64,000 nucleotides of DNA from Mycobacterium sp. SVM_VP21 (lineage in GTDB: Bacteria; Actinomycetota; Actinomycetes; Mycobacteriales; Mycobacteriaceae): positions 2,232,001-2,296,000 of the forward strand of contig CP101406.1 of the NCBI GenBank assembly GCA_024758765.1, read 5' to 3'. The position numbers and the translations under genes are program-made. This document shows positions 30,826 to 51,209 of this stretch, in pieces (the first letter of the stretch is position 1; every line of letters starts with the position of its first letter). The notes below the pieces were generated by a model, which had not been told where the DNA came from, made no database searches, and saw only the letters and a program-made list of their open reading frames with translations.

Positions 30826-32016
30826 GTGACGTCCATTCAACAGCGTGACGCGCAGTCGGTGTTGGCCGCCATCGACGACCTTCTGCCGCAGTTGCGCGAG
30901 CGCGCCCAGGAGACCGAAGACCTGCGCAAGCTGCCCGACGCCAACGTCAAGGCGCTTGAGGACGCCGGTTTCTTCCGGCTGCTGCAGCCCGAGCAGTGGG
31001 GCGGCCTGCAGTGCGACCCCACCCTCTTCTACGAGGCAGTGCGCCGGCTGGCCAGTGCCTGCGGCTCCACCGGTTGGGTTGCCGGCATCATCGGCGTGCA
31101 CAACTGGCACCTGGCGCTGTTCGACCAGCAGGCCCAGGAAGACGTCTGGGGTGAGGACACAGGCGTCCGGATCTCGTCGTCCTACGCGCCGATGGGCGCC
31201 GGTGTGGTCACCGAAACCGCCGACGGCTACATCGTCAACGGTTCGTGGAACTGGTCGTCGGGCTGTGACCACGCCACCTGGGCGTTCCTGGGCGGTCCGG
31301 TGATCAAGGACGGCAAGCCGGTCGACTTCGGCAGCTTCCTGATCCCGATCTCCGACTACCGCATCGACGACGTCTGGCACGTGGTCGGCCTGCGCGGCAC
31401 CGGCAGCAACACCGTCGTGGTCAAGGACGCCTTCGTGCCGCGGCACCGTTTCTTGTCCTACCGGGCGATGAACGACGGCACCGCCGGCGGCTACCAGACC
31501 AACACCGCGCCGGTCTACAAGATGCCGTGGGGCACCATTCACCCGACCACCATCTCGACGCCGATCATGGGCATGGCCTACGGCGCCTACGAGGCGCACG
31601 TCGAGCACCAGGGCAAGCGGGTGCGTGCGGCGTTCGCCGGCGAGAAGGCCAAGGACGACCCGTTCGCTAAGGTCCGGATCGCCGAGGCCGCCAGTGACAT
31701 CGACGCCGGCTGGCGTCAGCTGATCGGCAACGTCGGCGACGAGTACGCGCTGCTGTCCGCCGGCCAGGAGATCCCGTTCGAGCTGCGGGCCCGGGCCCGG
31801 CGTGACCAGGTCCGTGCCACCGGCCGGGCCATCGCCTCCATCGACCGGCTCTTCGAGGCGGCCGGTGCCACCGCGCTGTCCAACGACGCTCCGGTGCAGC
31901 GGTTCTGGCGCGACGCGCATGCGGGTCGGGTGCACGCCGCCAACGACCCGGAGCGCGCATACATGATCTTCGGTAACCACGAGTTCGGGTTGCCGCCCGG
32001 CGACACCATGGTCTGA
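30826..32016 (+). CDS. hsaA: 3-HSA hydroxylase, oxygenase subunit
   Basis: HsaA is the flavin-dependent monooxygenase that hydroxylates 3-HSA to the catechol 3,4-DHSA during ring A degradation; its reduced flavin comes from HsaB. It is a 396-residue member of the acyl-CoA-dehydrogenase-like group D monooxygenases. Blocks shared with the M. tuberculosis protein include LRKLPDANVKALEDAGFFRL, GSTGWVAGIIGVHNWHLALF, WNWSSGCDHATWAFLGGPV, VVGLRGTGSNTVVVKDAFVP and the C-terminal AYMIFGNHEFGLPPGDTMV. GTG start at 30826 follows GGGAGG by seven bases. It is first in hsaA-hsaC-hsaB. Confidence 0.95.
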   Translation: MTSIQQRDAQSVLAAIDDLLPQLRERAQETEDLRKLPDANVKALEDAGFFRLLQPEQWGGLQCDPTLFYEAVRRLASACGSTGWVAGIIGVHNWHLALFDQQAQEDVWGEDTGVRISSSYAPMGAGVVTETADGYIVNGSWNWSSGCDHATWAFLGGPVIKDGKPVDFGSFLIPISDYRIDDVWHVVGLRGTGSNTVVVKDAFVPRHRFLSYRAMNDGTAGGYQTNTAPVYKMPWGTIHPTTISTPIMGMAYGAYEAHVEHQGKRVRAAFAGEKAKDDPFAKVRIAEAASDIDAGWRQLIGNVGDEYALLSAGQEIPFELRARARRDQVRATGRAIASIDRLFEAAGATALSNDAPVQRFWRDAHAGRVHAANDPERAYMIFGNHEFGLPPGDTMV

Positions 32017-33537: not shown

Positions 33538-33547
33538 ATTCTCGCCC

Positions 33548-33603
33548 CGAGAGTGAAACCGGCGACGCCGACGCGGCGTGTCGCGTCGTGAGATTGCGTC
33601 TCG
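33548..33603. repeat. 56-bp imperfect palindrome, copy A (degenerate left arm)
   Basis: The right arm (33584-33603, cgtcgtgagattgcgtctcg) and centre share a 22-base run, ggcgtgtcgcgtcgtgagat plus tg, with the copies at 50171-50226 and 51154-51209. The left arm pairs at only about 13 of 20 positions. It follows hsaB and could act as its terminator. Confidence 0.65.
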
Positions 33604-33632
33604 CGCAGAGGGCGGCGCCTAACATCCACCGG

Positions 33633-48964: not shown

Positions 48965-48990
48965 CTCTTGACAGCCCCCTCGGGTCCAAG

Positions 48991-49027
48991 TGTACGGTGT
49001 GAACATATCCAATGTAGACGCCGTACA
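48991..49027. promoter_or_regulatory. Probable TetR operator in the divergent promoter
   Basis: TGTACGGTGT (48991-49000) pairs with ACGCCGTACA (49018-49027), nine of ten positions complementary, separated by 17 bases. TTGACA at 48968-48973 lies just upstream on the plus strand and could be a -35 element for the DUF899 gene. Confidence 0.6.
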
Positions 49028-49050
49028 CATACCAATGGGGGTTTTCGCCG

Positions 49051-50170: not shown

Positions 50171-50226
50171 CGAGCGCCAATCTCCCGACGCCGCCACGGC
50201 GTGTCGCGTCGTGAGATTGGCGTTCG
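50171..50226. repeat. 56-bp palindrome, copy B
   Basis: The arms 50171-50190 and 50207-50226 are complementary at 18 of 20 positions around a 16-base centre. It precedes the DUF559 gene; the longer possible start of that gene (GTG at 50211) lies inside it. Confidence 0.85.
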
Positions 50227-50237
50227 GTCGCCTGTGG

Positions 50238-51197
50238 ATGGATGTCAGCGCTGATCGGCACCGGCGAGCATGCTTTCAGGCTGTGGGCGAATTGGGATGG
50301 CCATTCCTGGGTCAGGAGGCGCTGGCCGCCAGGGCCATCCCCGAGCGGGCGATGCGGGCGCTCTACGAACCGGTTTATCCGGGGGTCTACGCGCCATGGG
50401 GTGTCGAGCTGACCGCCCGGCAGCGGGCGGAAGCGGCGTGGCTGTGGTCACGGCGCCGGGGGGTAGTCGCGGGTGACTCAGCCGCGGCGCTGCTCGGCAC
50501 GAAGTGGGTGAGCGGCGCGCTGGACGCCGAGCTGGTGTACGGCAGCCGGGTGCCCCCGCAGAAACTCGTCGTACACCGCGACATCCTGAAGCCGGGTGAG
50601 GTGGTAGACGTCGACGGGATTGCGGTCACCTCTCCGGCGCGCACCGCTTTCGACATCGGGCGGCGTACGTCGTCACGGCTTCGGGCACTCCAACGGCTTG
50701 ACGCACTAGCGAACGCCACCGGCGTCGGGGTTGCGGAAGTCGAGGCCGTCATCGACGCGCATCGTGGCGCGCGGGGCCTGAATCGGCTTCGCCGGGTGCT
50801 GCCGCTCGTCGACCGCGGAGCGGAGTCGCCGCAGGAAACGCGTACGCGATTGGTCTTGATCGACGCTGGCTTGCCGCGACCGGACACCCAGATCGTGGTG
50901 CGCGACAGCTACGGCGAATTCGTGGGCCGGGTCGATATGGGATACCGACAATTGAAGGTCGGCATCGAATACGACGGTCAGCAGCACTGGGCCAATCCGA
51001 AACAGCGGCAACGCGACATCGACCGCCAGGTAGGGCTGGCCGAGCAAGGCTGGGTGATCATCCGGGTCAGCGCGGAGTTGCTGAGCTACCGCCGCGGGAC
51101 GCTTATTGCCCGGGTGGAGGACGCGATGTATACCGCCGGTTGGCCCGGCCGCGCGAGTGCCAATCTCACGACGGTGACACGGCGTGTCGCGTCGTGA
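50238..51197 (+). CDS. DUF559/Vsr-fold endonuclease-like protein with AbiEi-like N-terminus
   Basis: A 319-residue protein from ATG 50238; the frame is open from GTG 50211 inside copy B of the palindrome. The N-terminal half (GELGWPFLGQEALAARAIPE and RGVVAGDSAAALLGTKWVSG) resembles winged-helix AbiEi-type antitoxin regions; EVVDVDGIAVTSPARTAFDI is the usual middle block. The C-terminus is a very-short-patch-repair/restriction-like nuclease: ETRTRLVLIDAGLPRPDTQI, FVGRVDMGYRQLKVGIEYDG and QQHWANPKQRQRDIDRQ, giving a plausible Glu...Asp...Glu-x-Asp active site. Its last residues and stop codon lie inside copy C. No toxin partner is adjacent. Nuclease activity is a family inference. Confidence 0.8.
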   Translation: MDVSADRHRRACFQAVGELGWPFLGQEALAARAIPERAMRALYEPVYPGVYAPWGVELTARQRAEAAWLWSRRRGVVAGDSAAALLGTKWVSGALDAELVYGSRVPPQKLVVHRDILKPGEVVDVDGIAVTSPARTAFDIGRRTSSRLRALQRLDALANATGVGVAEVEAVIDAHRGARGLNRLRRVLPLVDRGAESPQETRTRLVLIDAGLPRPDTQIVVRDSYGEFVGRVDMGYRQLKVGIEYDGQQHWANPKQRQRDIDRQVGLAEQGWVIIRVSAELLSYRRGTLIARVEDAMYTAGWPGRASANLTTVTRRVAS

Positions 51198-51209
51198 GAT
51201 TGGCGCTCG
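51154..51209. repeat. 56-bp palindrome, copy C
   Basis: The arms 51154-51173 and 51190-51209 are complementary at 19 of 20 positions around a 16-base centre. It is in the same orientation as copy B, 983 bp further on. It encodes the end of the DUF559 protein (TGA at 51195-51197) and lies between two convergent genes, so it could also terminate transcription from both sides. Confidence 0.88.

Follow-up and report, generated by a model that had tools for sequence, protein, structure and literature searches.

The window, the whole 64,000-nucleotide stretch of Mycobacterium sp. SVM_VP21 DNA analysed in this study, contains a nuclease gene between two palindromes and a third, solitary copy of the same palindrome. 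All features lie on the forward strand.

33547..33605, + strand: palindrome copy A (family F1), solo and decayed, directly past a stop codon
50170..50227, + strand: palindrome copy B (F1), upstream of the nuclease gene, with 22-bp arms and a 14-nt loop
50283..51197, + strand: AbiEi-like/Vsr-like nuclease gene (DUF559/MTES_1575), 304 aa if it starts where the length of P0001 implies
50292..50813, + strand: predicted AbiEi-like fold (DNA-binding antitoxin type), P0001 residues 4-177
50826..51143, + strand: predicted Vsr/homing-endonuclease fold, P0001 residues 182-287, with conserved D218, E229, D231 and H235
51154..51209, + strand: palindrome copy C (F1), overlapping the 3' end of the gene and containing its stop codon

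B and C are imperfect palindromes with arms of 20-22 bp and a total length of about 57 bp. They lie 983 bp apart and are 89% identical over 57 bp; they have the same orientation and nearly the same sequence, as the original prediction had described. Copy B was asymmetric, its right half being better conserved. B and C alone reached a score of at least 11 in the 64-kb window with our own palindrome finder, and a separate repeat search gave one extra, weaker arm pair (20 nt, 80% complementary, 31807-31878). When folded as single-stranded DNA, both copies had z-scores of -6.3 to -8.6 against shuffled sequences. The F1 covariance model, built from 22 copies with A, B and C among them, gave no match in the window besides A, B and C, the next candidate having an E-value of 0.15. 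A Rfam scan of the window gave nothing that reached the gathering score.

A third copy distant from the nuclease had also been predicted, and it was found as the decayed copy A. Its pairing is gone (fold z -0.13), and it aligns with better-kept F1 elements at the equivalent site behind the stop codon in G110, G023 and G001. A palindrome was sought at this site in G142 and G112 and none was found; the site there (L107, L102/L103) carries about 0.7-1.1 kb of extra sequence, alike over about 0.85 kb. In G127, an unrelated strong palindrome with 24-bp arms (CGAGCAGTCGCGAAAGCCCCC..) occupies the site (L099 5090-5147, equal to G127:C66:25090-25147), and its arms resemble, by eye, those beside the DUF559 genes of L123, L137, L144 and L151. 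A different conserved palindrome, GTGTACGGTGTGAACAT..ATGTAGACGCCGTACAC, lies at 48990-49028 of the window between what we take to be a TetR-like gene and a divergent ORF. Of six relatives, five have it at the equivalent place and one has a diverged version, and it is perhaps the operator of a regulator.

The longest open reading frame (50211-51197) runs from a GTG within B to a TGA at the equivalent position in C, and the original prediction had given this frame for the gene. The stop stood: it lies inside C in the nearest relatives as well, which match up to residue 328. The start is doubtful. The database entry for the window's own protein, P0001, has 304 aa, and this length corresponds to a start at about 50283, on the downstream side of B. 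Among the matches listed, relatives were mostly 286-310 aa long. Since P0001 and these shorter relatives conflict with the second-best match (319 aa) and with the nearest relative, whose frame matches the longest frame of the window from residue 7, the true start codon is uncertain.

In Pfam scans, the window protein scored 22.8 bits for DUF559, above the cut-off of 20.6, and 33.2 bits for MTES_1575, below the cut-off of 38.2. Among 58 relatives, matches at E<=0.01 were found to MTES_1575 in 39 and to DUF559 in 36. The scans returned MTES_1575, DUF559, AbiEi and a weak HofP match, and no tyrosine transposase model. In the alignment of relatives, E229 was invariant and D218, D231 and H235 were at least 90% conserved. 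The predicted fold of the one protein modelled matched AbiEi and Vsr-like structures, and one of the two solved structures that best matched the nuclease half was the homing endonuclease I-Bth0305I; Foldseek taken alone gave weak E-values of 0.03 and above. The fold match and the four conserved residues agree with the Vsr-type nuclease fold that had been proposed. By sequence and model, the window protein belongs to the DUF559/MTES_1575 Vsr-like nucleases, and its activity is predicted.

Distribution of the F1 palindrome

The closest relatives of the gene were collected as 20 own-clade loci, from 19 genomes with a gene of at least 63% identity and from G024 (62%); G049 was excluded because its gene runs past the contig end. 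At 19 of the 20 loci, the covariance model placed F1 palindromes both before and after the gene; L068 is the single locus with an element on one side only. All 41 of these elements scored better on the strand of the gene, six of the 41 having been in the training set of the model.

The surroundings of the gene were conserved. In eight of the 20 loci (L031, L032, L033, L061-L065), the gene has the two neighbours that it has in the window, presumably ipdC-like and ipdB-like, and the other 12 share a different upstream neighbour. Because of these conserved neighbours, a hopping nuclease cassette was rejected for this clade, and the suggestion that the cassette itself is mobile was not supported. 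The nuclease gene looks, from its conserved neighbours, vertically inherited with its locus while the palindromes disperse.

A 21-mer from the right half of F1, with up to three mismatches, matched in 23 of 100 relatives, with up to 16 matches per genome; the reversed 21-mer gave 0-1 matches, and some of the single matches are chance. With the covariance model (E<=0.01), at least one match was found in 109 of the 148 genomes of the genus, and homologues of the gene at E<=1e-90 were found in 50 of the 148. At most 37 candidates per genome were scored, so that a count of 37 means at least 37, and genomes without a match were counted as 0. The median was 26 (range 6 to at least 37) in the 19 genomes with a gene of at least 63% identity, the G049 fragment being omitted, and 2 (range 0 to at least 37) in the other 129 (p 1e-10). 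The element had been expected to go with the gene when mapped across genomes, and the counts do track it, with ten exceptions: G046, G158, G056, G115, G058, G157, G016, G154, G138 and G009 have at least 10 F1 matches and no listed homologue at E<=1e-90. G158, despite its many F1 elements, has a frameshifted F1 gene (L166 3330-4267). All four homologues found in G046 are distant, the best being 47% identical.

Covariation within F1 gave mixed evidence. Double changes were seen in 6 pairs and in 5.5 pairs in shuffles; the covariation score was 0.135 against 0.101, a value reached in 1 of 500 shuffles. Pairing was 79%, compared with 25-48% when the alignment was slid as a control.

The position of dispersed copies was examined at 61 loci from G163, G148, G110 and G001, which are not independent, those of G163 and G148 being mostly orthologous. 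The cassette loci L292 and L309 and the doubtful G001 matches L363 and L367 were omitted beforehand. For 59 of the 61 loci, a predicted high-GC3 ORF had its 3' end no more than 150 bp away; two had no ORF 3' end nearby, and none lay solely inside an ORF. Among random points that such ORFs leave uncovered, 17% lay within this distance; this control is rough, as uncovered sequence includes missed genes and the ORF limits were slightly different. Most solo palindromes are only tens of bases away from the 3' end of a gene, a bias far above random uncovered positions.

DUF559-type genes and palindromes of other lineages

Paralogues were analysed in seven genomes represented by one to three contigs each (G005, G007, G010, G023, G030, G040 and G046). 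In these, 58 homologues were counted, and all 51 that were listed with positions were analysed. A strong palindrome (score of at least 12, arm of at least 14) flanked 35 of the 51 genes and 6 of 234 control ORFs (Fisher 2e-26). Repeats from flank to flank (score of at least 20) were found at 37 of the 51 genes and 15 of the 234 controls. At least one of the two signs was present at 43 genes and neither at eight. The controls were ORFs of at least 200 aa from the window and six relatives, after removal of those that overlapped a DUF559 gene or a region end or were no more than 400 bp from either, and G023 alone was in both sets. Two of the six positive controls flank the solo palindrome of G127. 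By these counts, the association of gene and palindrome is statistically strong and general within the genus.

Of 93 loci, 61 had a strong palindrome, and among these 61 palindrome similarity followed protein identity (Mantel r 0.78, 0 of 2000 permutations). Within genomes, none of 86 palindrome pairs reached a similarity of 0.5; G005 has nine genes with nine different palindromes, although those of L118 and L119 look related by eye. Many palindromes have the outer tips CGAG..CTCG, and several have a loop stretch like CTACTCGCACTTTCG (both by eye). Between different nuclease lineages the palindrome arms are unrelated, and therefore each nuclease probably recognises its own palindrome. Some of the match between palindrome and protein lineages is expected from common descent alone; dispersed copies and a link between copy number and gene are not.

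Two further families, F3 and F4, were followed through the genus. F3 (arm CGAGTGTGCGTTTTGGTCGGC) flanks the L055 gene of G023. Its arm gave 9-14 matches in each of G001, G023, G110, G119 and G142, compared with 0-2 in each of the 143 remaining genomes, and the reversed control gave 0-2. At the F3-flanked places in G119 and G001, the gene was nearest to L055 among three queries (75% identity in G119 and, for a truncated gene, 81% in G001). An F3-type nuclease gene in G001 is truncated (L163 974-1402), with F3 arms on both sides.

F4 (arm CGAAATTGCATTCCAGCAGGC) flanks the L048 gene of G040, and by eye its tips are CGAAA..TTTCG where those of F1 are CGAG..CTCG. The F4 arm had 106 matches in G180, 100 in G038 and 80 in G164, against 0-1 in the reversed control. 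F4-flanked places hold genes nearest to L048, of the three queries, in G122 (97%), G186 (89%), G014 (65%), G050 (64%) and G038 (57%, one flank seen). Ten of 12 genomes with a gene of at least 64% identity had at least five F4 arms, compared with 16 of the 136 remaining genomes (p 3e-7). When the criterion for the gene was relaxed to E<=1e-95, the corresponding numbers were 20 of 58 and 6 of 90 (p 3e-5). Exceptions occurred on both sides: 38 of the 58 genomes with an F4 gene at this cut-off had fewer than five F4 arms, and G021, G143, G155, G160, G166 and G169 had at least five arms and no such gene. F1, F3 and F4, the three families tested, are thus all dispersed, and copy number tracks the cognate gene for F1 and F4, with exceptions. 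The solo copies that had been expected elsewhere are found across genomes in this way.

The class was represented by 118 genomes, some of them from this genus, and 84 of these had PF18741 matches. Outside the genus, flank-to-flank repeats were present at 13 of 20 genes and strong palindromes at 8 of 20; these genes of about 300 aa were picked by hand from the PF18741 matches by frame length, several of their ORF limits are doubtful, and they had no separate control. At L205, a Nocardioides gene lies between two palindromes of the ACGGTTCCCACG type. The association probably extends beyond the genus. Palindromes based on TTGATCATGG flank or lie close to DUF559-type genes in three genomes outside the genus (L244, L246 and L247), which suggests another widespread family.

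Filled and empty sites

G148 and its sister G163 are 96% identical at the cassette locus. Since 16 of 19 element loci of G163 and 16 of 17 fetched from G148 are common to the pair, any movement of the palindrome is rare. Empty-site alleles in relatives, to which the original prediction had pointed, were found for two elements. The site G148:C3:55703 is filled in G148 and empty in both G163 and the more distant outgroup G106. In the empty alleles the sequence continues without interruption from TGAGGC; the filled site is longer by about 60 bp, with a small deletion nearby and no target duplication beyond 2-3 bp. As neither G163 nor G106 has the element, these alignments are most simply read as a gain in G148. 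The site G110:419568 is filled in G110 and empty in G001, with a 66-bp difference after TGTGAT and no duplication, and gain and loss are alike compatible with it. Both filled/empty pairs also differ by small indels or substitutions, and neither has a duplication of more than 2-3 bp.

Twelve loci were queried, and these two were counted. L351 and L357 are common to both genomes, judging from the spacing alone. At L288 a partly decayed copy is present in G148, and at L370 there is a deletion between short repeats in G110. L346 was too diverged, L286, L349, L358 and L364 had longer unrelated differences, and L291 was split across contigs in G148. Base-precise empty sites were also sought in relatives of G038, which were too diverged.

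Fast turnover of element interiors had seemed likely by eye and was rejected: the mean identity of element and flank was 0.96 and 0.92 in 15 G163/G148 pairs, and 0.875 and 0.856 in six G110/G001 pairs, with L352/L366 far lower (0.61). Compared with L352, L366 (about 700-742) has a shortened palindrome with an apparent internal deletion of about 20 bp, and the sister has the full element. Spread by phages or plasmids was likewise dropped, as the few queries tried found no match: the cassette, F4 and one further palindrome in plasmid collections, the cassette and that further palindrome in phage collections, and exact F1 and F4 patterns in viral contigs.

Comparison with known systems and possible mechanisms

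The arrangement resembles REP repeats and their RAYT transposases. In both, the gene lies between two palindromes, extragenic copies are mostly behind genes, the repeat type tracks the protein lineage, and the gene is mostly vertical at the species level. The available part of PMC3116915 describes lateral transfer of RAYT genes as infrequent at the species level, and that of PMC3733652 places REPs mostly downstream of coding regions. F1, F3 and F4 are dispersed, the lineages match across the 61 genes compared, and a pair of copies flanks the gene at 19 of 20 F1 loci. These flanking copies are direct, whereas RAYT genes are flanked by REPs in inverted orientation, according to the part of PMC2817692 available. 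The enzymes also differ: RAYTs are IS200/IS605-type tyrosine transposases, and the window protein is not one of these but has a predicted AbiEi-like part and a Vsr/PD-(D/E)XK fold. The repeats here are mostly 56-65 bp with CGAG-type tips, unlike REPs of 20-40 bp with a GTAG head, and by eye F1 and F4 have no GT(A/G)G head. The proposed REP-like logic with a different enzyme therefore finds agreement in the flanking pair, the dispersed copies, the lineage match and the non-transposase fold.

Other known systems share single traits. CGTC-tagged REPs of other phyla are also dispersed palindromes unlinked to a transposase gene; in the available part of PMC3733652, they have stems of 8-9 bp and no cognate gene is reported, whereas a candidate gene is present here. 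The same part mentions untagged REP-like families for M. tuberculosis. Vsr-fold (EDxHD) homing endonucleases such as I-Bth0305I differ in that here no intron or intein was seen and the nuclease has an AbiEi-like half and palindrome families. From AbiEi antitoxins of type IV toxin-antitoxin systems (Rv2827c-like), the protein differs by the fusion of the AbiEi part to a nuclease and by the pairing with palindromes. The statement that no such system has been described agrees with the open-access papers listed in the literature searches, judged by title and abstract, in which DUF559 or MTES_1575 proteins were not linked to palindromic repeats; subscription papers lay mostly, and bioRxiv wholly, outside this scope.

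The main rival explanation is that the palindromes are terminators or 3' mRNA hairpins, operators for autoregulation by the AbiEi half, or both, and that the nuclease does not move them. The 59 of 61 solo copies close to an ORF 3' end, with none solely inside an ORF, fit this, given the 17% of the rough random control, and AbiEi antitoxins autoregulate by binding to repeats. However, terminators need neither a conserved family sequence nor an asymmetric conserved half, and they are not expected as paralogue-specific families that flank the matching gene and rise in number with it. Autoregulation requires no downstream or distant copies, and the 3' position is not distinctive, as REPs have it too (PMC3733652, available part). 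We regard this explanation as unlikely. Cutting without copying is another possibility: the nuclease would cut sites in 3' regions in a homing- or addiction-like manner, the palindromes would form where breaks are repaired or would protect sites, and the flanking copies would shield the gene's own locus. The match to I-Bth0305I, the toxin-antitoxin type of the AbiEi half, the missing clear target duplication and the small deletion at G148:C3:55703 are consistent with it, but the two empty sites have, by eye, no common recognition sequence, and we judge it quite unlikely. Elements that are short, palindromic, dispersed and non-coding could also be ordinary MITEs left by a DDE or HUH transposon that has since been lost, the nuclease gene being a passenger between two copies, and one such cassette could arise by chance. 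This is very improbable in view of the many distinct palindromes paired with one protein family, the lack of clear target duplication at the two sites, which also differ by small indels or substitutions, and the lack of matches to a few queries in phage and plasmid collections.

The best reading, by analogy, is a REP/RAYT-like system that would have been built independently on an enzyme of Vsr/homing-endonuclease fold. Palindromes accompany the genes, have diversified with them and are dispersed in the genomes; we infer from analogy and the modelled fold that the nuclease binds and cuts its cognate palindrome and mobilises it. The AbiEi-like half, together with the nuclease half, would bind the palindrome, perhaps as an extruded hairpin, and the nuclease would cut the palindrome or a target. 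Repair or hairpin copying would then put a new copy of about 60-66 bp elsewhere without a clear target duplication, and copies would be retained at positions where a 3' hairpin does no harm or is of use. These results suggest that the repeat of each lineage is spread or maintained by the enzyme of that lineage.

We consider it rather probable that this is a widespread actinobacterial system, in which a chromosomal AbiEi-like plus Vsr/homing-endonuclease-like nuclease has its own palindromes, mostly of about 56-65 bp, and solo copies. The further view, that actinobacteria have a very large number of independent pairs in which an AbiEi-Vsr nuclease recognises one hairpin, copies it to new places and co-evolves with it in recognition, in convergence with RAYT/REPIN, may have an even chance of being right. 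To our knowledge, REP-like repeats have so far been found with one kind of dedicated enzyme. The actinobacterial system would add to this a second enzyme family, unrelated to the first, that has cognate palindromes. A large family that so far has no other name than 'DUF559' or 'endonuclease domain-containing protein' would gain a role that can be tested, and the system may provide dozens of natural protein-palindrome pairs for testing the evolution of hairpin recognition.
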